DNA of 53,500 bases, taken from Chromatiaceae bacterium (GTDB lineage: Bacteria; Pseudomonadota; Gammaproteobacteria; Chromatiales; Chromatiaceae). The notes under the pieces are model-generated. The model did not search any database and was not told where the DNA came from. It worked only from the letters and a program-made list of their open reading frames with translations. The stretch covers positions 1 through 53,500 of the forward strand of contig JACDZG010000045.1 in the NCBI GenBank assembly GCA_013426805.1, written 5' to 3'. The position numbers were made by a program, and so were the translations under genes. This document shows, piece after piece, positions 7,854 through 52,971 of the stretch; position 1 is the stretch's first letter; every line of letters starts with the position of its first letter.

Positions 7854-7962
7854 TCCCTCTGCCGCCGGGCGGCGCGTCCGTGTCGTCAACCGCGGGCGGT
7901 TGCGCGTGACCGCTGCCAAGGGGCTGACTGAACCCGCCCGGTTTTGCTGTATCCTCTCGTCC

Positions 7963-17963: not shown

Positions 17964-18129
17964 GGTTATTCCCCGTTCCTGGAGTCGCACGAGTATTGAT
18001 CCCAGGGTACCATGCGTGGCTTCGCCAGGGAACGTTCTGTGTTATTGCTGCCCTCTGGGAATCCTGCGACATAATGCAACTGCGAGAGCGAGAACTGTGG
18101 TTTCCTCCCGGTTTCACCTGCTTTGAAAA

Positions 18130-18670: not shown

Positions 18671-18928
18671 CTACCCACGAAGCAAGCGATCATATTCTTC
18701 GTGGGTGCCGATCCAGACCCAGACGTAACCGCTTTCGTCTTCCATGGCGAGCGCTCGATGGTCACGGCCTACCCGAGCAGAGCAGAGTGTTCCAACTTTC
18801 TTAAAGCGCAATGACGGGTGACGCGGGTTCTCCTTGAGGATCTCGCAGTTCCTGCGGGCAATTTCCTGAATCGGCAGCGGCAGCGCATAGAAGCGATTCC
18901 AGAAACGCGCGGTCGTCTTATGCTTCAC
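18671..18928 (-). CDS. RelE/ParE-like toxin
   Basis: This 85-residue basic protein has the RelE/ParE fold pattern: a helix start (FWNRFYALPLPIQEIARRN), HPSLRFKKVG, a beta strand with SARVGRDHRALA, and the ending VWVWIGTHEEYDRLL. Such toxins cut ribosome-bound mRNA or poison gyrase; the type cannot be decided here. It starts with GTG overlapping the antitoxin stop (GTGA), so the two are translationally coupled. Confidence 0.75.
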   Translation of the reverse strand: MKHKTTARFWNRFYALPLPIQEIARRNCEILKENPRHPSLRFKKVGTLCSARVGRDHRALAMEDESGYVWVWIGTHEEYDRLLRG

Positions 18929-19125
18929 AGGTCGCCTAGATTCCCTGCTCTTTTCTCTTCAAGGGCTTCTTCAATAAGGAAATCAAGCTTTCCCGCGTCA
19001 GAATCTCTTGTGATTTCTTCGTCCCATGACTGCCATTCACGCTCGGACAACCAGTGTGATAGCTTCATGTACTCCCGGTGCGGCAGGGCCTCGATCTCTG
19101 ATTTGAGTTCTTCAAATGTTTTCAT
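18925..19125 (-). CDS. Antitoxin of the RelE/ParE-like pair
   Basis: This 66-residue acidic protein starts MKTFEELKSEIEALPHREY and resembles addiction-module antitoxins with an N-terminal helical regulator segment and an acidic tail (DFLIEEALEEKR) that would wrap the toxin. The ATG at 19125 follows GAGG; a longer reading to 19161 is less likely. As the first gene of the pair it probably represses its own promoter. Confidence 0.65.
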   Translation of the reverse strand: MKTFEELKSEIEALPHREYMKLSHWLSEREWQSWDEEITRDSDAGKLDFLIEEALEEKRAGNLGDL

Positions 19126-19291
19126 GCGGGAAACCTCATTTGCTCTCGGGGTGCTGGTCAAAGAAATCCTTGAAGAACCCAGGCTGATTCAACGAATCAG
19201 GATAAATAAGAACGACGATTTGGTCAATATAATACAATGGGTCCACGAGTGTTCCTAACGGCGGTATTCGGCAGCAGCGGCCTTGGTCATG

Positions 19292-36658: not shown

Positions 36659-37152
36659 GGTGCGCGGCGTCGGTCGGGATCGTTCAGCCGTCGATTAGAC
36701 CCGGCTTGCAGGGTCCAACGCAAACCAGGACAACGCTGGGCTTTGAGCGGGGCGCAACGGCCCCTACCATTGGGGGCTTGGTCAGTTGGCCGCCGCGCGG
36801 CGCCGGCTGGTCGGGCCGATCGTTGGGGCCACGATGCGTTGGTGCCGGGTTCTCCGGGTCGTTGCGGGGTAGCGTTCGGGCCTGAAACACCGCGCTGCGG
36901 CGGGCGTCAGGGGGCCGCTCCCTTGGTGTTCCGGTGCTGCGTCCCGCCATTCCGACATGTCCGGCGATGCGGAAAAATGACTTAACTTTATGTATTAAAA
37001 ATAATTATTGAAAATTTATCAGGTTTTAGAAACAATTCTTCGTATTTAGTTCCTCACTAGAGGGCAACCTCTGCGACAATAGGCCCGCGATGACGCGCGG
37101 GCTGCAGACCCGTATCCCCAAAACCACCAAGCGAGAGAGGTTCAGCAGAGCC
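36659..37152. other. Regulatory region upstream of ppdK
   Basis: The first 300 bases are GC-rich without a convincing gene. From about 36975 to 37075 the sequence turns sharply AT-rich, as expected for a promoter region of the dikinase gene. Confidence 0.6.
37008..37036 (+). promoter_or_regulatory. Candidate sigma-70 promoter of ppdK
   Basis: TTGAAA (37008-37013) and AACAAT (37031-37036) are separated by 17 bases within the AT-rich patch, about 115 bases before the ppdK start. The -10 box matches the consensus at only four of six positions. Confidence 0.3.
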
Positions 37153-39927
37153 ATGTCAGCAGATAGCAAAAAACGCGTATTCGCTTTCGAGGAAGGTGAC
37201 GGCAAGAACAAGCACCTCCTCGGCGGCAAAGGCGCCAACCTGTGTGAGATGACCCAAATCGGCCTCAACGTGCCGCCCGGCTTCGTGCTCTCCACCGAGG
37301 CGTGCCTGGAATTCCTGGCCTCGCCGACCAAGGAACTGCCGGCGGGGCTATGGGAAGAAGTCCAGACGCAGATGACCGCGCTGGAAAAGAAGACCAAGAA
37401 GGGCTTCGGCAGCGCCGAAGAGCCGTTGTTGGTCTCGGTGCGTTCCGGCTCGGCGATGTCCATGCCCGGCATGATGGACACCATCCTCAACCTGGGCCTC
37501 AACGCCAAGACGCTGCAGGGCGTGATCAAGGCCACCGGTGACGAGCGCTTCGCGTACGACGCCTACCGCCGCTTCATCCAGTTGTTCGGCAAGATCGCGC
37601 TGAACGTGGACGACACGTTTTTCGATAAGCAGTTCGAAATGGTCAAGAAGGCGGCCGGCGTCAAAGAAGACGTGGCGCTGTCCGCGAGCGACCTGAAGGA
37701 TGCCGCCGAGCGCTTCCTGCGCGTGGTGCAGGAACAGACCGGCCGGCCCTTCCCGGAGGACCCCTACGAGCAGCTCCTGATCGCCATCAAGGCCGTGTTC
37801 GGCTCCTGGGGCGGCAAGCGCGCGGTGGACTACCGCCGCCAGTTCAACATCACCCCGGCCATGGCCAACGGCACCGCGGTCAACATCTGCACCATGGTGT
37901 TCGGTAACCGCGGCGACGACTCCGGCACCGGCGTGGGCTTCACCCGCGACCCCGGCACCGGCGAGAACGTTCTGTACGGCGAGTACCTGGTCAACGCCCA
38001 GGGCGAGGACGTGGTCGCGGGCATCCGCACCCCCAAGCCGCTGGTCTCCCTCAAGGCCGATATGCCGGAGATGGCCAAGCAGCTCGACGCGCTGCGCGAC
38101 CGTCTGGAAGGTCACTACAAGGAAGTGCAGGACTTCGAATTCACCATCGAGCGCGGCATCCTGTACTGCCTGCAGACCCGCAACGGCAAGATGAACGCCG
38201 TGGCCCAGGTGCGCACCTCGGTCGAAATGGTCAAGGAAGGCATCATCGACAAGCAACAGGCGCTGCTGCGCGTCGCCCCCGACAGCCTGGAGCAGATGCT
38301 GTTCCCGCGCCTGGACCCCAAGGCCAAGGCCACCCCGGTGGCCTCCGGTCTGCCGGCCTCTCCCGGTGCCGCCTCCGGCATCGCGGTGTTCGACGCCGAC
38401 CGTGCCGAGATGCTCGGCAAGGAGCAGGGGTTCAAGGTCATCCTGGTCCGTGAAGAGACCAAGCCCGAGGACATCCACGGCTTCTTCGCCTCCGAAGGCA
38501 TCCTGACCTCGCGCGGCGGCAAGACCTCGCACGCGGCGGTGGTCGCCCGCGGCATGGGCAAGTGCTGCGTGGCCGGTGCCGAGGGCATCCACGTCGATGT
38601 GGACAAGCGCATCGCCATCGTCGGCGATACCAGCTTCAAGGAAGGCGACATGATCACCCTGGACGGCACCTCCGGTAAGGTCTACCTGGGCGAGATCCCG
38701 ACCGTGGAGCCCGAGTTCACCGACGAACTGGTCACCCTGCTGACCTGGGCCGACGAAGTGGCGCGGATCAAGGTCATGGCCAACTCCGACACCCCGGTCG
38801 ACGCCAAGCGCGCGCTCAAGTACGGTGCCGTCGGCATCGGTCTGGCACGCACCGAACGCATGTTCAATGACCCGGCACGCCTGCCGATCGTCATCGACAT
38901 GATCGTCGCCGACACCCCGGAAGAGCGCCAGGAAGCGCTCGACCGGCTGCTGCCCCTCCAGCAGCAGGACTTCAAGGCCCTGTTCGAGGTGATGGCGCCC
39001 TACCCGGTGGTCATCCGTCTGCTCGACCCGCCGATCCACGAGTTCCTGCCCAACGAAAACACCCTGGTGCGTGAGATCACCGAGCTGCAGCAACTCGCCA
39101 AGAACGCCCATGGCCTCACCGCCCTGGGTGCGGCGATGACGCTGATGCAGGCCCCGGACAAGGTTCGCGCCGACGTCGACGGTCTGCGTCGGCAGCTCGA
39201 CCCGATGCTGGTGGAGTCGGTCATCGTCAAGAAGGAGCGGATGCTGCGCAAGGTGCGCTCGCTGTTCGAGACCAACCCCATGCTCGGCCATCGCGGTGTG
39301 CGCCTCGGCATCAGCTTCCCCGAGATCTACCAGATGCAAATCCGGGCGATCCTCGAAGCCGCCGCCGAGTGCCAGGCCGCCGGCGTCGAAGTCCACCCCA
39401 AGATCAAGGTACCCCAGGTCTGTACGGCCCAGGAACTCAAGATCGTCAAGAAGTGGGTCGATGCTATTCATGACGAGATCAAAGCCCGCACCGGCAAGCC
39501 GGTGAAGTTCCAGTTCGGCACCATGATCGAAGTCGTGCGCGCCTGTATGCGGGCCGAGACCCTGGCCGAAGAGTCGGAGTTCTTCTCCTTCGGCACCAAC
39601 GACCTGACCCAGGCCGCCTTCTCGTTCTCGCGCGAAGATGCGGAAAACAAGTTCCTGCCGCTCTACACCGAGTCCGTGGTCCTGCAGGACAACCCCTTCG
39701 AAGTGCTGGACGAGAAGGGCGTCGGCAAGCTGATGGAACTGGCGGTTCAATGGGGCCGTTCGGTCAAGCCGGATCTCCTGGTCGGCATCTGCGGCGAGCA
39801 CGGCGGCCACCCGGCAGCCATCGCCTTCTGCGACAAGATCGGGCTCGACTATGTGTCCTGCTCGGGTCCGCGCGTGCCGGTCGCCCGGCTGGCGGCGGCG
39901 CATGCGGCGCTGAAGGCGGCGAAGTAA
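37153..39927 (+). CDS. ppdK: Pyruvate, phosphate dikinase
   Basis: This 924-residue enzyme interconverts pyruvate, ATP and phosphate with phosphoenolpyruvate, AMP and pyrophosphate. The N-terminal ATP-grasp domain begins VFAFEEGDGKNKHLLGGKGA and contains SVRSGSAMSMPGMMDT. The swivelling domain carries the phosphohistidine in GGKTSHAAVVARGMG. The C-terminal PEP/pyruvate barrel ends with FGTNDLTQ and the catalytic Cys in GICGEHGG. The length is typical. The ATG at 37153 matches the family start. It is monocistronic and closed by a strong hairpin. Confidence 0.97.
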   Translation: MSADSKKRVFAFEEGDGKNKHLLGGKGANLCEMTQIGLNVPPGFVLSTEACLEFLASPTKELPAGLWEEVQTQMTALEKKTKKGFGSAEEPLLVSVRSGSAMSMPGMMDTILNLGLNAKTLQGVIKATGDERFAYDAYRRFIQLFGKIALNVDDTFFDKQFEMVKKAAGVKEDVALSASDLKDAAERFLRVVQEQTGRPFPEDPYEQLLIAIKAVFGSWGGKRAVDYRRQFNITPAMANGTAVNICTMVFGNRGDDSGTGVGFTRDPGTGENVLYGEYLVNAQGEDVVAGIRTPKPLVSLKADMPEMAKQLDALRDRLEGHYKEVQDFEFTIERGILYCLQTRNGKMNAVAQVRTSVEMVKEGIIDKQQALLRVAPDSLEQMLFPRLDPKAKATPVASGLPASPGAASGIAVFDADRAEMLGKEQGFKVILVREETKPEDIHGFFASEGILTSRGGKTSHAAVVARGMGKCCVAGAEGIHVDVDKRIAIVGDTSFKEGDMITLDGTSGKVYLGEIPTVEPEFTDELVTLLTWADEVARIKVMANSDTPVDAKRALKYGAVGIGLARTERMFNDPARLPIVIDMIVADTPEERQEALDRLLPLQQQDFKALFEVMAPYPVVIRLLDPPIHEFLPNENTLVREITELQQLAKNAHGLTALGAAMTLMQAPDKVRADVDGLRRQLDPMLVESVIVKKERMLRKVRSLFETNPMLGHRGVRLGISFPEIYQMQIRAILEAAAECQAAGVEVHPKIKVPQVCTAQELKIVKKWVDAIHDEIKARTGKPVKFQFGTMIEVVRACMRAETLAEESEFFSFGTNDLTQAAFSFSREDAENKFLPLYTESVVLQDNPFEVLDEKGVGKLMELAVQWGRSVKPDLLVGICGEHGGHPAAIAFCDKIGLDYVSCSGPRVPVARLAAAHAALKAAK

Positions 39928-40535: not shown

Positions 40536-42209
40536 TTACTTCCAAACATCATAGATTTCGCTGCGCCTCTTACTGGCCTCCTGTTCGCTTTTCCACTGTG
40601 CGCTATCCCACGCATCTAGCACTTTCGCTCGCCTATGAAGAAATGTTTCAAAGTCTCCCGCGCGCAACGCAGCCAGCGCTTCCGAATCTACAAAATGCGC
40701 AGCCAATGCCTCATCTGATAAATCGGGACCTTTCAATAAGCGTTCTTTGAGAATAGGCTGATCACTTGGGTCAACAAGAAATCGATTTCCTGCCCCTTGG
40801 AACAGTTGTCTAAGAGTTGGAGATGCCTTTGGTAATGCTGGAAAAAGTCGACCAAACGCCTCGCGTCCATGGTTGAGAAGTAAACTGCGACCATCCTCTG
40901 GACGGCCATTTGCATCTACAACCGGATTATGTAGAGCAAGGCGAAGCATCATAAGTCGAACTCGAGCCGAACGGAAATCGAAGCGTTCAGGAAGTGCTTG
41001 GTCACGAGACCACGTTACATCATCTGCTATATTTCCTGCAGCGTTCCGAAGTTGCTCTTGTTCGGACTTAATTTGGCGATATGCTCCCGTTCCAAACACC
41101 CCTGACCAGCTTGTACGCCAAAACCATCCTAGCACGCCTTCATTGAATAGCTGTTTCCCTGTAAGTCGGTCTACTTCAACTGCTAGCAGTACCAGTTGGA
41201 AAGCGTAGGGCAGCAATTCCTGATTGGCTATAGCGGCGTTGGCAACAAGCCAGTCTACTGCGCGCATAAGGCCCGCTCCGGCCCGATCCAATAGCGTCTT
41301 ATCATCAGTTAGCTTCTTTACCAACTCATTTTGCCCAGCCTTGGTCATATCCAATCCGCTAAGTCCCTTGCATACCTGCAAATAGATCGCCTCATCAATG
41401 TTTCGCCATCCAGAAGGTAGTGTGTCCCGTAGATCAGCAACCCGTTCTCTTAAGTCAAAATCCGAACTCCAAGTCAATGCTGCTACAAAATGAGCCTCGT
41501 TCATCGGCGTTCCGAGACTATTAATCCGCTGGAAAGTTTTTGCGGCCAACTCAAGATCATCAGTAACCATAACAACTATTGGGATACGGCACTGCTGGAA
41601 TCGGTATGATAGTTGGTCTGCCAGCACATCCCATGCATCGAGATTCCCTTCAGTCCAACCTTCACTCTTTGCGCGACGACGCAGTTCACGCATATGCTTA
41701 TTTACAAGCCGTCCATCAAAAAGAGTCCATAAGGGAAGCAATGGCCGCTTCGCGCTTTTTTTCGAAGCGATTCGCCCAAAGACAAAGTCATTCTCCATTA
41801 AGTCGTATTGAATATCCCAGTCGATGACAGCCTCGTCAGCTAACTGATTTTCTAAACTGAGCGGCTCAGGCGGGAGCAACAATCCGAGGAGTGTGGAAAC
41901 TCGTTGGTGACCATCGAGCAGGTATTGCCATCCCGTTGCGGGCGCCTTATCTATAATGGGTGGAATGAGATGAGGTCCGACTGTCGGAAAAGAAGCGAGC
42001 TTAAACTTTATTGTCCGCCATACAAGTAAGCTGCCAATTGGCATGTTGTCGCGGACCGATCGCAGTAAATCCAGACGCTGCGAATCAGACCACACAAAAG
42101 GCCGCTGAAAGCGCGGCACACGGATGTGACCGCGCACGACGTCTTCCAGCAGGCTTCTCAAACTCGGATTTAAGTTCTCTGAAGCAAGCGCGGTCAGGCT
42201 TTCGGACAT
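40536..42209 (-). CDS. DUF262 protein, third gene of a candidate defence operon
   Basis: This 557-residue protein has the DUF262 signature RVPRFQRPFVW (30-40), SVRDNMPIGSLLVW (51-64) and DGHQRVSTLLGL (99-110). The last replaces the usual DGQQR by DGHQR. The C-terminal part (FVDSEALAALRAGDFETFL then HRRAKVLDAW) resembles the end of the other DUF262 protein in this window, and again I see no HNH motif of DUF1524. It may thus act as an NTP-dependent sensor or regulator and not as a nuclease. Its ATG lies 13 bases after the TOPRIM-like gene, with GAGG upstream. Codon use is AT-richer than in the flanking chromosomal genes. Confidence 0.85.
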   Translation of the reverse strand: MSESLTALASENLNPSLRSLLEDVVRGHIRVPRFQRPFVWSDSQRLDLLRSVRDNMPIGSLLVWRTIKFKLASFPTVGPHLIPPIIDKAPATGWQYLLDGHQRVSTLLGLLLPPEPLSLENQLADEAVIDWDIQYDLMENDFVFGRIASKKSAKRPLLPLWTLFDGRLVNKHMRELRRRAKSEGWTEGNLDAWDVLADQLSYRFQQCRIPIVVMVTDDLELAAKTFQRINSLGTPMNEAHFVAALTWSSDFDLRERVADLRDTLPSGWRNIDEAIYLQVCKGLSGLDMTKAGQNELVKKLTDDKTLLDRAGAGLMRAVDWLVANAAIANQELLPYAFQLVLLAVEVDRLTGKQLFNEGVLGWFWRTSWSGVFGTGAYRQIKSEQEQLRNAAGNIADDVTWSRDQALPERFDFRSARVRLMMLRLALHNPVVDANGRPEDGRSLLLNHGREAFGRLFPALPKASPTLRQLFQGAGNRFLVDPSDQPILKERLLKGPDLSDEALAAHFVDSEALAALRAGDFETFLHRRAKVLDAWDSAQWKSEQEASKRRSEIYDVWK

Positions 42210-42222
42210 GGAAACCTCAAGG

Positions 42223-43224
42223 TCAGAGGAGACGCATCAGGCGAGGTAGAGTATCGAATGCCTCTTGGCGTGCCTCGGCATCCCAGTCGAATTCATAGGT
42301 TAGTGCTTGCTGGTATTGATCAGCAAATTTTCTGCCGAACCCTTCATGCAATAAAACACGATCAGCATTGGCAACCCCGACGTAAAGATCGAGACAACGG
42401 TGCCTATTTTCGATAGACTCATCACCCTTGAAACCCTTTTTCATATTAAAATACCATCGTGCATGCTGGCTCATTCGAAAAAATGCGTTGACCGCATCTG
42501 CGCGATTGTTTAGCATCGCTTCTTTGTTCATTTCCGATTCAGGCATGTACGACTCGATGAAACGGCGCTTTAGCATCCAATGGCGCTGCTGAAGTTGTGG
42601 ATGCAACAATTTCTGAATCACAAATCCCTGGCATGCCTCGGTGCGAGTGGGTTCCCATGTGGCGGTCAACTCGTCAGGATGCCGCCGATCGCTATCAAAC
42701 ATCACGAACGTACGGAGAGCTTCCTCCTGTCTTTCCAAACGCCTTGGTAATTCCGTTCGCAAATTGCTTCCTCCACCATGAAGAGGTTTAGCCCAACCCT
42801 TATCTACGGCCTTGCGTATTCTATCGCGTTCAGAAGGACGCATTATTCCGAGAAGAAAACACCAATCATTTGTGGCATTTTCCATAATTATGCCAAGCGG
42901 TACAGAAAGTGCGGCGAGCGCCCTATCCAGTGGTAGCACGGCCAATGGGTCATCCCAAGACGGAGACGCGGTATTTTCAATACGTATCGCAGCCGCATTG
43001 GCAGGAAGTTGGGCTGCGACCCGTTCCATTTGACCAAGCGCTGTCGAGTAAATTGAGCGGCTTCCCGCATCTATTGTATTCAGGCACTCGTTTAGAGCGG
43101 ACGGCGTGTCGAATAATACAACATGGCGCCCTTCGCAAGCAAATAGCAGTAATTGATGAAGTTTCAATAAATCGCGTGTCCCAATGGCAGATGCCACGAC
43201 GGCTTGTGATATATGCACTTTCAT
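42223..43224 (-). CDS. TOPRIM-like protein, second gene of a candidate defence operon
   Basis: I do not recognise this 333-residue protein as a named family, but it shows a TOPRIM/OLD-like order of motifs. These are an acidic start IIMENATND (Glu115, Asp120), a Gly-rich turn HGGGSN (149-154), FVMFDSDRRHPDE with the Asp-x-Asp pair (177, 179), and MLKRRFIESYMP (217-228), which resembles the 'rr.iEnYl.p' segment of OLD and DUF4435 nucleases. If correct, it is a metal-dependent nuclease. Its ATG overlaps the ATPase stop by four bases (ATGA), so the two are made together. Confidence 0.55.
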   Translation of the reverse strand: MKVHISQAVVASAIGTRDLLKLHQLLLFACEGRHVVLFDTPSALNECLNTIDAGSRSIYSTALGQMERVAAQLPANAAAIRIENTASPSWDDPLAVLPLDRALAALSVPLGIIMENATNDWCFLLGIMRPSERDRIRKAVDKGWAKPLHGGGSNLRTELPRRLERQEEALRTFVMFDSDRRHPDELTATWEPTRTEACQGFVIQKLLHPQLQQRHWMLKRRFIESYMPESEMNKEAMLNNRADAVNAFFRMSQHARWYFNMKKGFKGDESIENRHRCLDLYVGVANADRVLLHEGFGRKFADQYQQALTYEFDWDAEARQEAFDTLPRLMRLL

Positions 43225-44420
43225 GAAGATGCTCTCTGCATCTGCAGTTGCCTCGCAATCAACTCCTGACCAAGTAGAACGGCCTCGCCAAATGCGCCGA
43301 TAAGGGCTGTAGTTAAGGGACGGCCTTGAGCGTCAAAGTCTACAGGGATGGCATCGCTGGTACCATCCGTACGCGACTCAACCCAATAAACGCGGACCAT
43401 TTCAGGTCTAATGGCCTCGCTTGCGATAGCAAGTTGGACACTGGTTAAGAGAACCTCAGAGTGGGTTTCAACCAAGATACGGGGTTGCGGACTATGCGTC
43501 GCTGACTCCACCAATAGCTTTGAAAACTCAGCTTGCGCGCGCGTATGTAGATGCAGTTCGGGCTGCTCCAGACAGAGTATACGTGGCCCTTCGCCGATAC
43601 GCGCACGCGCCAAGGCTACCAAGACAGGTAATACCTGGGCATAGCCTTCACCTGTATCGCAAAGGCTTACATCGACTTTAGGAGCGCCAGTGGGTCGCAA
43701 CAGAACACGCCACACGCCGCCGATTGGGTTGTCGAGAACTAGCTGTTCACCAAGTGCGGAGAAAAAGCTTCCTGTTGCATCCAATAATGGGTCTACCGTG
43801 CTTCGAAGCTGTGCCGCAATAAGGTGGGCTACTGCATCCTCGCCATCCGAGCGAAGAGTCGATGGAGCACCTCCACCATATGTTGCGACGCGAGGCGGAC
43901 GTACTCGGACACCGCTAACCCATTGTATCTGCGATGATAGGAGTCTAAGCCGTGATCTAAGCAAATTTAAGGTACTTATTGAATCCTCGTCGTCACCAGT
44001 CCAAGGAACTAGGCCGGTTGTGCGCGCCCCAACTACGTTTTCATCATCAAATGAACGCTGCAAGTCGCCGGATTTTACTGACAGTGATTTCGTTTCCTGC
44101 CATCGCCCTTCAAGGTCTCCAGCGATTTCCCACTCGGCATTGATGGGGTTTCCATCGGACCAGGAAAGAGCAAACCGCAAACTACCACGCGAGGTTGTTT
44201 TACAAACCAACTCGGGCCATGTTGCATGACGGCCGACGTCACCTGCTAGCCAAATGGGAGGGCCGGCTGTAAAAATCGACTCAGCAAGAAGCGGAAGAAA
44301 GCGGATGAGCGCACTCTTGCCACCGCTGTTCCAACCGAAAAAGAGTGTAAGTGGTCGGATTTCAATATCTTGCCGTCGCGAGAAAGCCCGATAGTTTTCT
44401 ACCGAGAATGCAGATAACAT
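43221..44420 (-). CDS. OLD/AAA15-type ABC-ATPase, first gene of a candidate defence operon
   Basis: This 399-residue SMC/ABC-like ATPase has Walker A GWNSGGKS (29-36), Walker B ILCLEQPELHLH (281-292) and the switch His in VETHSEVLL (317-325). It starts with the typical strand pattern SAFSVENYRAF. Proteins of this group act as sensors with a separate or fused nuclease in OLD, Gabija, PARIS and Septu systems. The ATG at 44420 follows GGAG; a longer reading from 44486 overlaps the broken antitoxin gene further. It is coupled to the TOPRIM-like gene. Confidence 0.85.
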   Translation of the reverse strand: MLSAFSVENYRAFSRRQDIEIRPLTLFFGWNSGGKSALIRFLPLLAESIFTAGPPIWLAGDVGRHATWPELVCKTTSRGSLRFALSWSDGNPINAEWEIAGDLEGRWQETKSLSVKSGDLQRSFDDENVVGARTTGLVPWTGDDEDSISTLNLLRSRLRLLSSQIQWVSGVRVRPPRVATYGGGAPSTLRSDGEDAVAHLIAAQLRSTVDPLLDATGSFFSALGEQLVLDNPIGGVWRVLLRPTGAPKVDVSLCDTGEGYAQVLPVLVALARARIGEGPRILCLEQPELHLHTRAQAEFSKLLVESATHSPQPRILVETHSEVLLTSVQLAIASEAIRPEMVRVYWVESRTDGTSDAIPVDFDAQGRPLTTALIGAFGEAVLLGQELIARQLQMQRASS

Positions 44421-44879
44421 CCAGATACTCCATAAAACGAGATAGTTTGGTAGCCTGCGAGATGAAGCATTGAGGATGGCCTGCACTTGCGGATGGTGGT
44501 CGGCTGCGGGAATCGACGATCAGGGATAATCAGACTTTCCGCCGGAATCCCGAGTCCCCGATGCAGTCGCCGAATCATCGCGAGGCTCAACGTGCGTTTG
44601 CGCGCCAGCACTTTATGGAGCCGATGGGGCGGGCCGATATAGGGTTTCATATCGGCCACCGTCAGGCCCTGCTGCTCCATCCTGAACTTGATGGCCTCGA
44701 TCGGATCGGGTGGCGGCACGCGATGATGTTGCGCTTCATGCGCCTGCACCAAGATGGGCTAGTACGTCCAGGCGGTTAACCTCAGGCGTGCCGGGCAGCG
44801 GATCTTTACCCATCAGCGAGGCGATCTCGTCCAGAGCAGCTTCGTAATCGGGCTCAGTCCGGATCGGACAAATAGCCAT
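44399..44879 (-). pseudogene. higA: HigA-type HTH antitoxin with a frameshift
   Basis: The N-terminal frame from ATG 44879 (ribosome site AAAGGTGA) reads MAICPIRTEPDYEAALDEIA and on to LDVLAHLGAGA, then stops at 44736. The following frame continues with the normal HigA sequence from VQAHEAQHHRVPPPDP through the HTH (LTVADMKPYIG, LARKRTLSLAMIRRLHRGLG) to its stop at 44399. One extra G near 44751 explains the break (CTTGGTG where CTTGTG is expected). No HigB toxin gene is adjacent. A sequencing error cannot be excluded. The gene lies between ietS and the ATPase gene, on the same strand. Confidence 0.75.
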
Positions 44880-44935
44880 TGCGGTCACCTTTCTTTCACC
44901 GTTTCGGTATCGGTACGGACATACTTGCCTATTCA

Positions 44936-47533
44936 TTAGGCGTTTATGGGTATGGCTGCTCGCAGCAGTTGCCGAACTTGCTCGTACACTTCCACCGGAA
45001 CCGCTTCGCCCACCTCAAAGCTGACGACCAGTCCATAGTCGATTTCCTCATCCAATCCGGCGGCGTCTTCCCGGCAGTTGACTTGGATACGCAGGGAATC
45101 GCCGTCAGCGAAGTCGCGGGCCTTGTCGCCTTCAAACACTTCATGTTGGACGGTCCCGCGCCTCACCAAGTCGTCGTCATAGCCGTTTGGACCGCGCGTA
45201 ACGCCGATCAGGTCGCTTGCGTCGGTGGTGAACCAAAGCTGCGCCTTGCGGTAGCGCTGCTGGTGCGGGGCTATCGGCGTGAGCCAGGCGAGCGTGATAG
45301 TGACTCTGCGCAGCCCCCCGATTCCCCTGAGGTCCGAGGGCAGGGGCAGTGCGAACATATGGGCGCTACCGTTGATCAAGGACCCGAACCCGAGCAGGGT
45401 TGCCCGTCGCTCCGTGCACCCAAGGACGCGTTCCGGGTCAACGAGACCGTAGCCCAAGAACCTACCCGTCAGTTCCTTGATCTTATGCCCGCCGACCTCT
45501 TCCTTGAACAGACCCCGCATCCGGTCGCCCGCCTCGGCCCAGCGCGCACCGTGAACTAGCAGGGCCTTTAGCAGCACGGCGTCATAGCGCGGGGGCAACG
45601 CCGCGCTATCGGACTCGGATCGAAGGGTTTCCAGCATCTCGAACAGTCGCGCTCCGAGGCGTGTTGCCAGGGCGGTCGCGTTGCTGGTTCCGCGGAATCG
45701 GAGGGTCTTGTTTGTCTCGCCCGGCAACGAACCAGGAACTGCCGTCTTCTGCCCGGGTGGTCCGTAGCTCTGGACTGGAGCGAGGCGGACGTTCGGCGAG
45801 CCGGTCCCCAGCGCATCTTGGTAGATCTGTCGCCCGCCGGGCATCAGGATTTCAGGTTTGACCGAGCGAAGAAAGCCTAGGCCATTGGCGCTGATCGGAC
45901 TTGCCAGCGATCCCGTCCGCAACGGATCACAGTGATAGGCCGCGTGCGGGCCTTGCGAACAGTTGTCTGAATGGGCGGCCCCGATGGTTAGGGCGTTGAT
46001 CGATTCGGCCGGCGATAGGATGCGGCGGTTGCGTGCGTTAGATTTCAACGCGCAAAGGACCGCGGCTTCGCGCGTCACCGCATCGGTGTTGGGCCAGGCC
46101 GTCTTCTCAATGTTCAAATCGAGTTCGGCAGGGTGGTTGCCCGCACTCACGATAAAGAGAACCCCGTACTTGTATGACAGCCAGTCGAGGAGTCGCGCCC
46201 AAGGGCTCAAGCCCTGCATGAAGGGGCGGGACGGATCGCCAATAGACAGGTTGACGATTCGGACCTCTGGTGCCATGGCCTCGGTTGGCCCGTCACCTTC
46301 AAACAATCGTCGCACTGCTCTATGAACCGAGTCCACGGGCAGCACGCCGTCCGGGATATGTTCCCGAGGATCACGGGCGCCCAGTTCGGGTAGCATGATT
46401 GGACGGCAGTAGATGGGGCGGGACAGCGGCGGCTCGGTCGCGTCGAGTTCGCCATGGATGATGAGCGACGCCATCGAGGTTCCATGCCTCCGCTGTTGGG
46501 CAGGCGCGTCGGCCTCAAAGCCGTCTGGGTCGTCGATGATCAGTCGGCCGTTGAGCAGTTGGTGTCCAGCGAGAGGCAGTCCGTCGAGCAGCGCCACGAC
46601 CGGCGGCAAGGCAAGATCTGGTAACGCTACAGGGAGTAACGCGGACTCTCCGGTCCCCGGTGTCAGGATCAGGGGGACCGCGCATTGCCCGACTGGGCGC
46701 ATGAGCCAGAGGTCGTTGCAGCGCACAAGCTCGATGTTTCGATCTTCACCGAGCAGTTGCGATGCCGCAGCAGCGGGGATGTTCCCGAGAATCGCGTGGT
46801 AGCGGATGTCAGCGAGTTGAAATCGTCTCGAAACTCTCCCGCCCAACGCCCTGATCAACCGACCGACCTCTGCCTCGGCCAAGGCGCGTCGTTCCGCGGT
46901 CTGCCGATACCAGAGTTCGGCCTCGAAGGGCATGGTTTGCTCGCCAGCTTCGATACGCTCGGTGAGGTCCTCCAGCACACCTGTCTCGCGAAGGCGATCC
47001 TCAATTCCCCAAGGGCGGATATCGACGATCAGCGGAAAAACGTCTCGCCAAGCCGTCTCCCCGTAAGGCCAGACAACGCTGGGGTCGTCCCGCCAGCGGC
47101 GCCAGCGGCTCAGTAACTCGTCGAGTGCCCGACGGTCGGTCATCGTGAGGAAAAGACGTCCGCGATAGGGCTTGTCCAGGCGCTGCCCTTTGGCGTTGAG
47201 GGGATGGATGGTTTCGCCCGGGTCGAGGTCTACCTCGTCCTCGGCGAGCCACTCGAGACCGATCATCCTCGCGGCGGCCACGAAGTTGTTCGGATTGGTC
47301 GCAAGCTCAATGACTAGAGCCATTTCGGGCTCGATCCCTGCGGCGCTTGCCTGCAGCCGCATACGCTCGTTCTCCAGCGCCTGTTGGAGTCGTGACAACT
47401 TGGGATCGAGGTAGCTGACGACCTCGTCGCGCGACCGTGGGTTGAACTTGGGGCGACCAAAAGGGCGCGTCGGCTTCGTTGCCGGAACTGGCTTTTGAAA
47501 CAGCAGGAGAGGCAGGCGGTCCGTATTGCTCAT
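44936..47533 (-). CDS. ietS: IetS: subtilisin-like serine protease of an IetAS system
   Basis: This 865-residue S8-family protease has its triad in order: Asp317 (VVALLDGLP), His350 (RRHGTSMASL) and Ser near 617 (RGTSNATALATRL), with the oxyanion Asn in IVSAGNHPAE. It has no signal peptide, so it acts inside the cell. A helical N-terminal region of about 300 residues precedes the protease. The start is ATG 47533, overlapping the ietA stop by four bases. AAA ATPase/S8 protease pairs of this layout are known as IetAS, first described from an Agrobacterium Ti plasmid and later reported as anti-phage defence. Confidence 0.85.
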   Translation of the reverse strand: MSNTDRLPLLLFQKPVPATKPTRPFGRPKFNPRSRDEVVSYLDPKLSRLQQALENERMRLQASAAGIEPEMALVIELATNPNNFVAAARMIGLEWLAEDEVDLDPGETIHPLNAKGQRLDKPYRGRLFLTMTDRRALDELLSRWRRWRDDPSVVWPYGETAWRDVFPLIVDIRPWGIEDRLRETGVLEDLTERIEAGEQTMPFEAELWYRQTAERRALAEAEVGRLIRALGGRVSRRFQLADIRYHAILGNIPAAAASQLLGEDRNIELVRCNDLWLMRPVGQCAVPLILTPGTGESALLPVALPDLALPPVVALLDGLPLAGHQLLNGRLIIDDPDGFEADAPAQQRRHGTSMASLIIHGELDATEPPLSRPIYCRPIMLPELGARDPREHIPDGVLPVDSVHRAVRRLFEGDGPTEAMAPEVRIVNLSIGDPSRPFMQGLSPWARLLDWLSYKYGVLFIVSAGNHPAELDLNIEKTAWPNTDAVTREAAVLCALKSNARNRRILSPAESINALTIGAAHSDNCSQGPHAAYHCDPLRTGSLASPISANGLGFLRSVKPEILMPGGRQIYQDALGTGSPNVRLAPVQSYGPPGQKTAVPGSLPGETNKTLRFRGTSNATALATRLGARLFEMLETLRSESDSAALPPRYDAVLLKALLVHGARWAEAGDRMRGLFKEEVGGHKIKELTGRFLGYGLVDPERVLGCTERRATLLGFGSLINGSAHMFALPLPSDLRGIGGLRRVTITLAWLTPIAPHQQRYRKAQLWFTTDASDLIGVTRGPNGYDDDLVRRGTVQHEVFEGDKARDFADGDSLRIQVNCREDAAGLDEEIDYGLVVSFEVGEAVPVEVYEQVRQLLRAAIPINA

Positions 47534-48540
47534 GAGTTCGGTGTCGGCTCCGTCGGCAGCTCGGACTCCATAGGCTTGACGCAAAACCGCTGCTGCCAAG
47601 CCGCAAGCCTGGTCTGCACAATCCGCTTGAGGTTGCTGTCCGGCAGGGCAAGCACATGCCGTCGCAGCACATCCTCACCGAACTGTTCTGCTTCAGCGAA
47701 GCTCAAGCCCTTGAGGCGCATTGCGAGCGCACGGGGCGTCCAACCAAGCGGCTCGCCCAAACGCTCTTGGAAGCGGCGGAACCACTCTTCGAGCATCGAC
47801 TGACTCGGGGGCGGCAGTTCCAGGCGCAACTGGAATCGTCGCCAGACCGCGCGGTCCAGCAGTTCGGGGTGGTTGCTGGCGACGACCGTTACCGCGTGAC
47901 TTGGCAGGGCATCGATCTGCATCAGGAGGGTGCTGACGACGCGCTTGATTTCCCCGGTTTCGTGGGTGTCGCCGCGTTCCTTGCCCAGGGTGTCGAACTC
48001 GTCGAAGAACAAGACACAGCGTCGGCTGGCGATATGCTCAAAGACCCGGCGCAGGCGCTGCGACGTCTCGCCGAGGAAGCTGCCGATGACAGACTCGTAG
48101 CGGACAACGAACAGCGGCACCATGAGCGCGTCGGCCAGGGCCTCGGCCAGCGTCGTCTTTCCGTTGCCCGGCGGGCCGGCCAACAGCACACGATGTCGCG
48201 GTTCCAGATTGTAGGTCCGCAACAGGTCGGTCCGATGCTGCTCTTCCACCAACTCGTCGCAAGCCATGCGGACGACCGGCGGCAGGACCAGCGAGTCCAG
48301 CGATCGGCGCGGTACGATCTCGTGCAGCAGATCGAGCGCCTTCTCGTCGGGGACCGCCAGTCCGAGCGGCTTGCGGCCGTTGCCGTTGAGGTTCAGACCC
48401 TGGATCAGCCGGTCAGCGAGCAGCGCATGGTTCTTCGCCCGCTCCTCGGCGGCCATGGATTCGACGAGGCGCACGAAAGCCCCCCGGTCGCCCCGGGTGC
48501 CGGCTTTAACGAGATCAACGAGCAAATCGGCGCGTGACAT
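47530..48540 (-). CDS. ietA: IetA: AAA+ ATPase of an IetAS system
   Basis: This 336-residue AAA+ ATPase has Walker A AGPPGNGKTT (121-130), Walker B VLFFDEFD (176-183) and a sensor/arginine-finger region LDRAVWRRFQLRLELP. It has a small helical N-terminal domain. It is taken to start at ATG 48540 and not at the TTG one codon upstream; the ribosome site is weak. It is translationally coupled to ietS and is expected to control the protease. Its start lies 125 bases from the second MITE-like element. Confidence 0.87.
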   Translation of the reverse strand: MSRADLLVDLVKAGTRGDRGAFVRLVESMAAEERAKNHALLADRLIQGLNLNGNGRKPLGLAVPDEKALDLLHEIVPRRSLDSLVLPPVVRMACDELVEEQHRTDLLRTYNLEPRHRVLLAGPPGNGKTTLAEALADALMVPLFVVRYESVIGSFLGETSQRLRRVFEHIASRRCVLFFDEFDTLGKERGDTHETGEIKRVVSTLLMQIDALPSHAVTVVASNHPELLDRAVWRRFQLRLELPPPSQSMLEEWFRRFQERLGEPLGWTPRALAMRLKGLSFAEAEQFGEDVLRRHVLALPDSNLKRIVQTRLAAWQQRFCVKPMESELPTEPTPNS

Positions 48541-48665
48541 CAACGCTATGAATTAGATAAATAAAAATGATTTGTGCCGAAGGTTTCGCAAATCTGCGTA
48601 AGTGCGGTTCCAATGTGCAATCGGCGATGGTCCGCGACGTTTCGTTCGGCTCCGGGGCTGCGGCT

Positions 48666-48831: not shown

Positions 48832-48977
48832 GGGCTGCGGCTGCCACGATCCGCCGGGCCTTCGCACATGGTACGACAGTCAGGACCCACGGGCTGTTTC
48901 GTTTTGGGGCTACTGGCGACCTGAATTGGGTGCAGGCCATGGTTGACTCCTTGGCTTCTGGTGATATGATCAGCGAT

Positions 48978-49409
48978 ATGACTCTAACCCGCGTCGTTCT
49001 GGATACTAATGTCTTGGTGGCCGCTTCCCGCAGCCGCAACGGTGCCTCCTTTGTGCTGCTGCAAGCTTTGCGCGATCGGCGCTACATCGCGCTTGCCTCG
49101 GTTCCGCTGCTGTTGGAGTATGAGTCAGTGCTCAAACGGCCCGCGCAGATACAGGCCGCAGGACGTAGCGAGGCCTTGACCGACGCCTTCCTGGATGCCC
49201 TGTGCCTGCTTGTGGAACCGGTTCATCTGTATTTCTTGTGGCGCCCCCAGGCCCGCGACCCTGCCGACGATATGGTGCTGGAAACTGCGCTGAACGGTCG
49301 GGCCACGGCGCTGGTTACCACGAATGTCAAAGATTTTGGCGCGGCCGAGCGGTTTCGGCTGCCGGTGCTGACCCCGGGCGCCTTTCTGCGCCAACTGCGC
49401 GAGGAATAG
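48978..49409 (+). CDS. PIN-domain toxin
   Basis: This 143-residue PIN ribonuclease of the VapC-like/DUF type has its acidic residues in place: VVLDTNVLVAA (first Asp), LLEYESVL (Glu), DPADDMVLETA (third acid) and TTNVKDF near the end. The starts at 48966 and 48978 are both possible; I use the one that places the Asp at the usual distance from the N-terminus. It overlaps nothing and is followed five bases later by the antitoxin gene, the reverse of the usual antitoxin-first order. Confidence 0.85.
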   Translation: MTLTRVVLDTNVLVAASRSRNGASFVLLQALRDRRYIALASVPLLLEYESVLKRPAQIQAAGRSEALTDAFLDALCLLVEPVHLYFLWRPQARDPADDMVLETALNGRATALVTTNVKDFGAAERFRLPVLTPGAFLRQLREE

Positions 49410-49777: not shown

Positions 49778-50928
49778 TTACGCCGAGACCACCTGTACCA
49801 GGTCGGCGAGCCCAATCGCCTCGATGTTGTCGGCCAGGGCCAGGCGGCGGTCCCCCGGGTAGACGACGACCAGCCGGTCGAGCCGCAGGGTGTCGATGGC
49901 GGCGCGCATCGACTTGGTCACGCGCGGAGTGGCGGTGTATTTGATCTCAAAACCAAGCCGCTGGCCGTCAGCCGTCACCAGCAGGTCGAGTTCTGCGCCC
50001 GCGTGGGTCCCCCAGAACCAGACCTCTTCGGCGCCGACAGCGAGGGCGCGAATCGTCTCTTCCAGGGCAAACCCCTCCCAGGAGGCGCCGAGCTTGGGAT
50101 GGTGGAGCAAGGCGTCCCGGTCGGCGATGCCGAGCAGGGTGTGCAGCAATCCCGAGTCGCGAAAAAAGAGTTTTGGCGACTTGATCTGCCGCTTGCCGAC
50201 GTTCTCGTACCAGGGTCGCAGCAGGCGCACCATGAAGGTGGCCTCCAGGATGTCCAGATAACCCCGCACCGTGGTATCCGCGGCACCGAACGAGCGCCCC
50301 AGCTCCGAGAGGTTGAGTAATTGTCCATGGTAGTGCGCCAGCATCATCCAGAAGCGGCGCAGGGACTGTGGCGGGATGCTGATGCCGAGCGCGGGCAGGT
50401 CGCGCTCCAGGAAGGTGGCGACGTAATCCTTGCGCCACTGCCGGCTGGCGCTGTCATCGGTCGCCAGAAACGCGGGCGGAAAGCCGCCCCGCTCCGACAG
50501 TGGATAAAGCGATTCGGCACCGGTCTCGCCGAGTTGCAGGGGTGTCAACTCCAGATGGCCGATCCGCCCGGCCAAGGTCTCGGAGGATTGGCGGATCAGG
50601 TCGCGCGAGGCGCTGCCGAGGATGAGGAAGCGCGCCGGATTCCCGGGGCGGTCGACGAGCACGCGCAGGAGCGGGAACAAGTTCGGGGCACGCTGGATCT
50701 CGTCGATGATGACCAGCCCGCCCAGCCCCTGCAGGGCCAGCTTGGGTTCGGCCAGGGCCGCGAGGTCGGGTTTTCCAGGTCGAAGCGGGTGACCGAGGTG
50801 TCGGTCAGGCGGTCGGCGTACATGCGTGCCAACGTGGTCTTGCCGCACTGCCGCGGGCCGAGCAGCGCGACCACCGGCGCAACCGCGAAGCGGGCTTTGA
50901 GCTTCGACAGGTATCGGTCACGTTTCAT
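49778..50928 (-). pseudogene. AAA_14/DUF4143 ATPase with a frameshift
   Basis: The N-terminal frame from ATG 50928 reads MKRDRYLSKLKARFAVAPVV, then Walker A GPRQCGKTT and RFDLENPT. The rest, from DLAALAEPKLALQG through IIDEIQRAPNLFPLL (Walker B), the linker and the DUF4143 nuclease-like domain (AELDLLVTADGQRLGFEIKY), is in another frame. The junction near 50762-50772 is explained by loss of one GACC from a GACCGACC pair. The family consists of cytoplasmic ATPases of unclear function, often linked to mobile DNA. As written the gene is broken; a sequencing error of four bases is less likely than of one. Confidence 0.78.
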
Positions 50929-51278
50929 ACTAGAATATTCGGCGATCGAAGCAGAAATATCAATGATAAAGTTCGTCAGATAGGACGGTTGAACCGTGGT
51001 GATGCCGGGCGGGGGTGCGATCACGTCCGTCGGCGGGAGGGGTCGAGAGACCGCCCGCGTATCTGCAAGGATGCGCGGGCGGTGGCGTTTTGGGGTGATC
51101 CTTGGCCTCATCGCCATTTCGGTTAGCGACCCCCGGCTCTTGTGACACCGCTCCAGAGATTGGGCACGTATTCGTTGTAGGTTGCCGTGAAAGCCATGGG
51201 GGCGCCCCGGAGCCTGGGGACAATAGTAGCGTGCCGCCGCGGTAGCGACGGTATAAAACCTCGGGTCGACCAGGGCGA
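50929..51278. other. Intergenic region left of the IS110 transposase gene
   Basis: The gap holds the hairpin at 51051-51082, and its right part should contain one end of the insertion sequence. No other gene is visible. Confidence 0.5.
51051..51082. repeat. Hairpin related to the ppdK terminator
   Basis: CCGCCCGCGTATCT with GGATGCGCGGGCGG forms a hairpin with two weak pairs, followed by GTGGCGTTTTGGGG. The sequence is nearly the same as 39994-40038, including the tail, so this is a dispersed repeat that may serve as a terminator at either site. Confidence 0.6.
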
Positions 51279-52496
51279 TCAGGCGGTCTGCGGCAGCAGG
51301 CCGAATTTTTTCAGTTGCCTGATCCAACGCGGTGCTTTGCGCTTCACCGCGAGTGCTTCGTAGTCGACCGTGGAATCGCGATAAGGCACGCCGCGCGCCA
51401 GTAGCACGTAGACGATCTTGAGCAGCTTATGGGCGATGGCGACAATCGCCCGCTTGGCTCCCCGACGAATCACCAAGGCTTGATAGCGGCTCTTGAACTG
51501 GCTGGCGGTGCGGGCGGCAGACCAGGCGATCTCGCACAACAGCGCACGCAGGTATCGGTTGCCCTTGGCGGTCTTGCCGCTTTTGCGCTTGCCGGCGGAT
51601 TCGCGATTGCCTGGACAGATCCCGGCCCATTTGGCCAGTTTTTCGGCGCTGCCGAAGGCACTCATGTCCTCGCCGATCTCCACCAGCAGTTTGGCGGCGG
51701 CCAGGGTATCGACACCCGGTAGGGTCATCAGGAGGTCCATGGCCGCCTGATAGGGTTCCAAGTGGGCGACGAGCGTACGCTCCAAGGCCGCGAGGTCGGC
51801 CTCCAGGACATCGAGATGGCGACGGATCATGCGCGCGACGAACAGGTGCTCTTCGCTCAGTTCGCCCTCCAGGGCGGCGGCCAGTTCCTCGCGCGGTGCC
51901 CGCAGCCGTCCGGCATGCGCGAGCGCCTGTTGCGGGGTCCCGCCGTCGAGCAGGCAATCGATCATGGCGCGCGCCGCGACCCCGTGCGGATCGGAGACCA
52001 CGGCCGTGAGGCGGATGCCGGCGTCGCCGAGCACGCGCACCAGCCGGTTCTTCTCGGCGGCGAGCATCGCGGTGACGCGCTGATGGTGGCGCGACACCTG
52101 GCGCAGATTGCGCAACGGCTCCGGCGGAATGAAGCTGCCGCGCAACAGTCCGGCGCGCGCCAGCATGGCCAACCACTCGGCATCGCCCACATCGGTCTTG
52201 CGGCCGGGGACCGTTTTGACATGGTGGGCGTTGACCACCAACGCCCGAATGCCGAGCCGTTCCAGGTAGACGTACGGGCTCTTCCAATAGATGCCGGTGC
52301 TCTCCATGACCACCGTCTCCGGGGCGAACCCGGCGATCCATTGGGCCATCTCCAGCCGATCGCGGCGGAACCCGCCGAAGCGGCGGCGATGCACCTGTGC
52401 TTCGCCGCTGGCGTCCTCGACGATGGCACAGACTTCAATCAGATTGAGGTGGACATCCATCCCCACCGCACTTCGACAGATGGGACGCAGGTCCAT
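51279..52496 (-). CDS. IS110-family transposase
   Basis: This 405-residue DEDD recombinase has an N-terminal RuvC-like domain with Asp in GMDVHLNLIEV, Glu in VVMESTGIYW and the pair in GRKTDVGDAEWLA, followed by a coiled-coil linker. The C-terminal Transposase_20 domain reads LMTLPGVDTLAAAKLL, then KLAKWAGICPGNRES and TAKGNRYLRALL; it carries the catalytic Ser expected in this family. The start is ATG 52496, after a perfect GGAGG site; a reading to 52631 is rejected. The gene looks intact. The ends of the element are not resolved. Confidence 0.92.
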   Translation of the reverse strand: MDLRPICRSAVGMDVHLNLIEVCAIVEDASGEAQVHRRRFGGFRRDRLEMAQWIAGFAPETVVMESTGIYWKSPYVYLERLGIRALVVNAHHVKTVPGRKTDVGDAEWLAMLARAGLLRGSFIPPEPLRNLRQVSRHHQRVTAMLAAEKNRLVRVLGDAGIRLTAVVSDPHGVAARAMIDCLLDGGTPQQALAHAGRLRAPREELAAALEGELSEEHLFVARMIRRHLDVLEADLAALERTLVAHLEPYQAAMDLLMTLPGVDTLAAAKLLVEIGEDMSAFGSAEKLAKWAGICPGNRESAGKRKSGKTAKGNRYLRALLCEIAWSAARTASQFKSRYQALVIRRGAKRAIVAIAHKLLKIVYVLLARGVPYRDSTVDYEALAVKRKAPRWIRQLKKFGLLPQTA

Positions 52497-52971
52497 GGTA
52501 ACCTCCACGTAGACGCGATACAGCGCATCGGAACGGAGATCTACCGTGGTTTCGATGGATAACCTGACCATCCGCAGCGTACCCATGGGCAGCGCCGCGC
52601 GACGGTCGGCGTGGTTGCCGTACGCGCTCAAAGGCAGCAGTCGGGGGTCCCGGTCGAAACCACTGGCTCATGTTGGGCTTCGCAGTCGCGCTGACATTCC
52701 TACGACGGCCTTGCGGTAGCACCTCCGCTCGCATACATGGCTTTCATGGGCGGGGGTGTCAAGGGCGCCGACATGACCGTTGGGCTGAGGAACGAAGCCC
52801 AACATGCGCGCGAACGCAAGGCGCTGAAATGTTGGGGTTCGTTCCTCACCCCAACCTACGGGGTTGCGTTGATTTCGCGCTCGGGCGGAATACTTGCCCA
52901 ATCTCTCCAGCCAGGTCACGCCTGCCACAGACGCTGTGCGCCGCGCGCACCGGCGGCCGGAAAGCGGACGC
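52497..52971. other. Non-coding region upstream of the IS110 transposase, possible bridge-RNA region
   Basis: No gene is visible over these 475 bases between the transposase start and the truncated GGDEF gene. IS110-group elements carry a non-coding left end upstream of the transposase that encodes a guide ('bridge') RNA, so part of 52497-52740 is a candidate. Further right, CATGTTGGGCTTCG (52669-52682) and its complement (52793-52806) form a wide inverted repeat. The boundary of the element was not determined. Confidence 0.4.

Follow-up and report, generated by a model that had tools for sequence, protein, structure and literature searches.

In the PARIS system, the ABC ATPase AriA forms a hexamer that acts as the sensor and keeps AriB sequestered; AriB is a TOPRIM tRNase for which a two-metal-ion mechanism has been proposed (PMC12409363). 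In class 4 OLD systems, the ATPase and the TOPRIM protein are encoded by different genes (PMC10568477), and OLD-ABC ATPases occur around BREX paired with TOPRIM, HNH, PD-(D/E)XK or PIN nucleases (PMC12839542). A component of Menshen (NsnA-NsnB-NsnC) is said to carry an OLD TOPRIM domain (PMC10952713), and ptuXYZ consists of a DUF262 protein, a PtuA-like ATPase and, encoded by ptuZ, a PIN-like/YoeB protein (PMC11980606, section 26). Here, we analyzed three adjacent genes, termed A, B and C, on a contig of 53,500 nucleotides from a Chromatiaceae bacterium (JACDZG010000045.1; assembly GCA_013426805.1, 7.6 Mb in 349 contigs); this one entire contig is the whole stretch of DNA that was analyzed and is referred to as the window. 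The genes encode an OLD-type ABC ATPase, a probable TOPRIM-like nuclease and a DUF262 protein, and they recur together as a stable unit that was already catalogued as a phage-defence candidate.

A recurrent three-gene unit

In the open reading frame (ORF) list, genes A (43221-44420, 399 amino acids), B (42223-43224, 333 amino acids) and C (40536-42209, 557 amino acids) are consecutive on the minus strand, with an ATGA (43224-43221) common to the end of A and the start of B and a spacing of 13 bases between B and C. Gene A was called by the program as 43221-44486(-) with a GTG start at 44486; judged from its context, the ATG at 44420 is to be preferred as start because GGAG lies 8-11 bases 5' of it and because, within the same context, the A protein on a viral contig (L060) starts one residue further upstream. 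The trio DNA has a guanine-plus-cytosine (GC) content of ~50%, compared to ~65% for the contig. In 1-kb steps, values of 0.49-0.53 were obtained across 40-44 kb and 0.55 at 44-45 kb, a second stretch richer in A and T lies at 18-20 kb (0.56), and the remaining steps range from 0.61 to 0.71. Both the ORF list and the GC steps agree with the sequence-only reading of this DNA, which had described three co-directional genes with an ATGA overlap and a 13-base gap in a region of raised A and T content.

The same reading had regarded the combination of the three families as one not known, and this did not hold. When models of PADLOC-DB 2.0.0 (2023) were searched against the window proteins, the best models were PDC-M55A for A (1.9e-51), PDC-M55B for B (6.1e-28) and PDC-M55C for C (2.9e-76). 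Because A, B and C all match models of one candidate, the three-gene combination was already known, and by these matches the trio is a new member of the listed phage-defence candidate PDC-M55, which it resembles in all three best models as well as in adjacency, common strand and A-B-C order, with no difference found. Menshen and ptuXYZ are related trios that also combine a DUF262 protein, an ATPase and a third protein. The PDC-M55 entry is a candidate listing that gives no mechanism, and its name was absent from papers in a full-text search that had preprints and most subscription journals outside its coverage.

The spread of the unit was surveyed in sampled genomes of one phylum. The PDC-M55B model matched 11 of the 398 phylum genomes searched (15 places; one of the 11 genomes through an OLD protein, L046) and 6 of 93 relatives (7 places, two of which were the window genome's own again). 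Combining both searches, with the window genome counted in both sets, gave 20 distinct B-like places in 16 genomes. Profiles of A, B and C were built from the window proteins and run on the surroundings of these 20 places, and A was found directly upstream and C directly downstream of B on the same strand in 19 of them, the window included. The exception was L046, which is a one-piece OLD protein of 593 amino acids. With A-B-C at 19 of the 20 B places, the order goes beyond chance, and the adjacency check came out in favour of the earlier suggestion of one three-gene unit. Fragments were present in three of the 19 places (L034, in the first of its two copies; L043, in C; and L050, in B, which is split into two ORFs), and the window genome holds a second copy of the trio on another contig (C138, L045).

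The A-B-C order was also observed in Pseudomonas sp. S37 (L011), in Magnetococcales bacterium HCHbin5 (L010, apparently the same stretch as L037), on one IMG/VR viral contig (L060) and on the Paracoccus yeei plasmid pYEE5 (L061). The B protein of pYEE5 matches PDC-M55B at 1.6e-32, and its trio is annotated as 'AAA family ATPase / hypothetical protein / DUF262 domain-containing protein'. No B relatives were found in the phage records searched.

Co-variation of the three proteins was analyzed in a set of 19 loci, made up of 15 of the 19 places (L010 taking the place of L037, which was not counted again) together with L011, L060 and L061, the three fragmented places having been dropped. Pairwise distances correlated with r=0.87 (A-B), 0.85 (A-C) and 0.76 (B-C), and none of 2000 label permutations reached the observed values (permutation maxima of 0.355, 0.387 and 0.370, respectively). 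Several subgroups recurred in the trees of A and C, namely L045/L048/L049, L040/L044, window/L010/L011/L041/L060 and L034/L035/L036/L038/L042. A point to set against this agreement is that the distance correlations are uncorrected for species relatedness. M55 was not resolved as one separate clade in either tree, with a long-branched OLD protein falling among the M55 rows in the A tree and the base of the C tree being open. Overall, A-B-C is a real and stable three-gene unit.

Identity of the three proteins

Protein A is, by its matches and motifs, an OLD-type ABC ATPase. After PDC-M55A, NsnB is its second-best PADLOC family (1.4e-31), and AriA is matched at 3e-18 (both values for ORF 43221-44486), but PDC-M55A, NsnB and HEC-03B all score better than AriA. 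Pfam searches identified AAA_15 (2.7e-16) and PDB searches the OLD-family structure 6p74 (2.4e-6). The P-loop residues G29, N31, G34 and K35 are kept in 19/19 loci and S36 in 18/19, as are P287/E288 and E318, T319 and H320 in all 19.

A-type matches at 1e-15 were obtained in 53 of the 398 phylum genomes, and 18 A-type regions without B were examined. In 13 of these 18 (L140-L155 series), the gene following the A-like ATPase starts like a PIN protein when inspected by eye (V.DTN...); two of the other regions end at a contig edge, L156 differs, and the next gene of L146 and L152 is not visible. Pfam PIN was matched only weakly and in one of five scanned next genes (L154, 0.0079, under the cut-off), and the third gene was an RNA_ligase in both loci scanned (2.7e-34 and 2.7e-32). 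The A-like ATPase, PIN-like protein and RNA ligase make up another recurrent trio, which might constitute an RNA cut-and-repair system.

OLD-type TOPRIM domains are characterized by metal-binding residues in the pattern E ... DxD together with RxxExY. In protein B, residues E115, D120, G151, G152, D177, R221, E224, Y226 and P228 are kept in 19/19 loci and D179 in 18/19, and in the one-piece OLD protein L046 the motif residues align with VEG..D, GG, DSD and KREIENY. PDC-M55B, the sole PADLOC match of B, also matches inside L046 (4.8e-4), and our own B profile, built without that model, matches residues 438-539 of L046 (8e-5). When B itself or a nine-row B profile was searched against PDB sequences, only chance matches were returned. 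Using hhalign, a profile of 20 B proteins was compared to seven OLD TOPRIM domains and scored 34.3 (p 3.9e-4), or 36.4 with L046 added, within a range of 34.3-37.3 and with HHalign probabilities of 36-56%; residues 100-240 of B alone scored 34.6 (p 5.7e-5, HHalign probability 66%). The highest score among 60 column-shuffled controls was 17.0, two additional sets of 60 peaked at 14.0 and 15.3, and the reversed control gave 15.1. Of the 11 families compared with B, OLD TOPRIM scored best, followed by PIN-like proteins, with the remaining nine at 13.4-17.8. Taken together, the motifs, the profile comparison and both matches within L046 make B very likely a TOPRIM protein, and E115, D177 and D179 form its probable active site.

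Several observations weigh against this assignment. The B protein of L038 is without the second Asp of the DxD motif and reads DNE (1/19), and no Pfam TOPRIM match (OLD-like_TOPRIM) was obtained in any of nine B proteins. The seven OLD domains used for comparison had been chosen by motif pattern from 11 Pfam OLD-like_TOPRIM loci, and an earlier run with other settings gave 22.5 and 24.9, the latter with one aligned column. B also scored 28.8 against PIN-like proteins (p 0.0027; shuffles ≤17.7), and DUF4435 scored 28.6 and 30.4 against A-type ATPase profiles, so unrelated families can score high. Finally, B scored 15.5 against five DUF4435 proteins (of seven loci), which is background (shuffle maximum 18.7); OLD itself reached only 20.0 against DUF4435, so this comparison is weak. 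AriB belongs to DUF4435. The similarity to PIN-like proteins stems mainly from B residues 100-170 (22.5), and a PIN-like N-terminal domain in B is not supported because residues 1-104 alone score no better than shuffles (14.5 versus up to 14.8).

Protein C matches GmrSD_N (Pfam, 1.1e-19), with no GmrSD_C match up to E=1. Residues D99, G100, Q102 and R103 (DGxQR) are kept in 19/19 loci, and the DGHQR of the window protein is a probable switch. In the C-terminal half, no His is kept in at least 18 of the 19 loci, and HNH/DUF1524 was not found. The sequence-only reading of the three proteins, namely an OLD-type ATPase with complete Walker motifs, a TOPRIM/OLD-like middle protein and a DUF262 protein without recognizable HNH, is borne out by the database matches of A, by the P-loop and TOPRIM motif residues (each kept in 18-19 of 19 loci), by a profile comparison that favours OLD TOPRIM over other families and by the Pfam matches of C.

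C-type proteins are also found without B, which speaks against the three genes acting as one system. In the window genome, five of the seven C-type matches are without B, one being the Menshen NsnA of L059, and nine C-type regions without B were found in other genomes (the L163 region starts inside C, hiding its neighbours). Among the 11 lone C-type rows of the C tree, nine fall in one clade (97/96) and two HipA-adjacent rows in another (99/92).

The window contains a second C-type DUF262 gene (16260-17990(-), PDC-M55C 3.8e-64), which overlaps by 17 bases with the likely start, at 16276, of a HipA-family gene (ORF 15026-16597(-), HipA_C 3.4e-44). A similar pair is located elsewhere in the window genome (L057:6031-7713 and 7714-8931, HipA_C 1.1e-51). 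DUF262-HipA is possibly a defence pair, and no paper on such a pair was found in a narrow keyword search of the literature. In L041:684-5930(-), C is extended into an ORF of 1748 amino acids with DUF262, TIR, NB-ARC and WD40 repeats, located beside a full-length A and B.

Genomic surroundings and proposed mechanism

Directly upstream of the trio lies an ietAS anti-phage pair (44936-48543(-)) with near full-length model matches, a known defence system composed of an IetA-type ATPase (47530-48543(-), IetA 1.5e-144) and an IetS-type S8 protease (44936-47599(-), IetS 1.5e-304). Between ietS and A (44399-44936(-)), two short overlapping ORFs (44399-44752 and 44736-44936) match consecutive parts of the 402-position PD-Lambda-2_B model (positions 44-119, 1.8e-27, and 4-44, 1.5e-6); they are the remnant of a broken, truncated helix-turn-helix gene and probably do not belong to the system.

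Of 98 listed neighbour ORFs, 85 that came from 16 loci were scanned jointly at 1e-10, not split by locus, and 148 PADLOC families matched. Among the 25 of the 148 families that were listed are a CBASS cyclase, 2TM effectors, type I restriction subunits, a DNA cytosine methylase and reverse transcriptases, with 1-3 members each. When 20 neighbours were scanned singly at 1e-20, eight matched. L039 has a type I restriction enzyme and a specificity subunit among its neighbours, L040 has a methylase and a DRT-type gene, and L048 has a subtilase; partial mad2 or mad3 matches occur in L035 and L037 (two genes in L037). Defence-type neighbours were thereby seen at five singly examined loci and the window, with none at 1e-20 for the others. 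The 12 of 20 singly scanned neighbours without a PADLOC match at this threshold count against a defence role. The earlier suggestion of a defence context is in keeping with the adjacent ietAS pair and with the genes for restriction, methylases and DRT that adjoin some of the other copies.

Further features of the window include a PIN-domain protein (48930-49409(+)), a DUF4143/AAA_14 protein matching PDC-S01 (49778-50848(-), with an AAA_14 start in another frame at 50596-51327(-)), an IS110-type transposase (51279-52631(-)) and, in the second stretch of lowered GC content, a gene for a ParE-like toxin that is paired with a small ORF (18671-19161(-)). Past the end of C, an ORF of 945 amino acids on the opposite strand (37090-39927) presumably encodes pyruvate phosphate dikinase. 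Between 39900 and 45200, promoter-like sites showed no excess (3 versus 4.1 in shuffles), and terminator-like sites were more numerous (11 versus 4.9) but scattered; neither were used. No tRNA was found in the window.

The trio is likely an anti-phage unit. As a whole, we lean modestly towards a mechanism in which the OLD ATPase A restrains the TOPRIM nuclease B and the DUF262 protein C is a sensor or switch dependent on nucleoside triphosphate (NTP), with complex formation, sensing partner, cut target and outcome for the cell all being proposals. A, an OLD-family ABC ATPase, would assemble and hold B, which would be the effector and act as a TOPRIM two-metal nuclease. C would be an NTPase of the ParB/Srx fold (DUF262) that has no nuclease domain of its own and recognizes a phage feature, either modified DNA or a phage factor, and its binding or hydrolysis of NTP would let A release or activate B. 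B would then cut nucleic acid (DNA, or tRNA like AriB), and infection would be stopped, probably by a halt of the cell. PARIS provides a worked example of a split OLD ATPase and TOPRIM pair (PMC12409363), and DUF262 has been described as an NTPase switch (PMC10952713).

Alternatively, the trio could be a three-part, modification-dependent restriction system similar to GmrSD or BrxU with TOPRIM replacing HNH, in which C binds modified phage DNA, A-B cuts it and the cell survives. DUF262 is present in GmrSD, BrxU and SspE, which are readers of DNA modification, and the DUF262 of Dazbog has been linked to methylated DNA (PMC10952713); moreover, C is without HNH and adjoins a nuclease-like gene in the M55 loci. 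In PARIS, however, a split OLD pair that has been studied, sensing is the task of the ATPase and tRNA is cleaved by the effector (PMC12409363), and restriction with survival of the cell appears unlikely. It is also quite improbable that A alone senses a phage protein and frees B, as in PARIS, with C serving as a regulator or self-protection factor. The matches of A to AriA (3e-18) and to OLD models and the split layout shared with PARIS (PMC10568477) would fit such an alarm, whereas C is present in 19/19 M55 places (one as a fragment) and co-varies with A and B, and the similarity of B to DUF4435 is at chance level. A non-defence role in DNA repair or the cell cycle, in which an archaeal OLD-class ATPase acts (PMC12796447), is highly improbable in view of the patchy occurrence (11/398 phylum genomes and 6/93 relatives), the plasmid and viral contig copies, the AT-rich block and the defence neighbours.

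With A restraining B under the control of C, an unexplained catalogue entry would become a testable machine with a probable active site in B, a probable switch in C, and PARIS and Menshen as a comparison set. The present analysis adds a controlled TOPRIM assignment, comparisons with Menshen and AriB that were negative, and a sign that the DUF262 partner is portable. If C-type proteins are indeed general sensors for nuclease, TIR or HipA effectors, this would help to answer what role DUF262 proteins without HNH have.

Comparison with described systems

The trio and the class 1 OLD and Gabija GajA proteins have the same kinds of ATPase and TOPRIM domains, and the A-B pair looks like an OLD protein divided into two parts (compare L046); the trio differs in being split into two genes, in having no GajB helicase and in its extra DUF262 gene. 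GmrSD, BrxU and SspE share with C a DUF262 domain with the DGxQR motif. In contrast to these systems, no HNH/DUF1524 was found in C, and the nuclease is presumably the separately encoded TOPRIM-like protein. PARIS resembles the trio in producing an OLD-type ABC ATPase and a TOPRIM nuclease from separate adjacent genes, but it is a two-gene system with no DUF262, and B is without significant similarity to DUF4435.

Menshen and ptuXYZ combine, like the trio, a DUF262 protein without HNH, a related ATPase and a third protein; their gene order is DUF262-ATPase-third protein, whereas here it is ATPase-TOPRIM-DUF262. B matches no NsnC model in PADLOC, and four proteins at the NsnC position (L052, L053, L059 and L065) showed no similarity to the B profile in comparisons of these few sequences (5.0 and 15.5). 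The third proteins of L059 and L065 showed no similarity to OLD TOPRIM (12.8-14.3), and the OLD TOPRIM statement of PMC10952713 did not fit two third proteins that were inspected. In the trees, NsnA and NsnB rows form their own clades. On the basis of gene order, the NsnC comparison and the trees, the reading of the trio as Menshen was rejected. The window genome holds a separate Menshen locus (L059:4319-7460) in the order NsnA-NsnB-NsnC (4.1e-111, 6.6e-97 and 3.7e-60), in which the NsnC match runs on into a second ORF.

More speculatively, PDC-M55, Menshen/ptuXYZ and the ATPase/PIN-like/RNA ligase trio might be forms of one chassis, in which an OLD/NsnB-like ATPase restrains an exchangeable effector (TOPRIM, PIN-like or PIN-YoeB) and is often triggered by a DUF262 NTPase as a portable sensor. 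We regard this as a tentative possibility. One genome has a fusion of the C-type protein with TIR-NB-ARC-WD40, and a C-type gene stands directly before a HipA-family gene at two places of the window genome, one of them in the window. Overall, the nuclease half of M55 is closest to PARIS and its ATPase and DUF262 half is closest to Menshen, and by the comparisons made here M55 is a member of neither.

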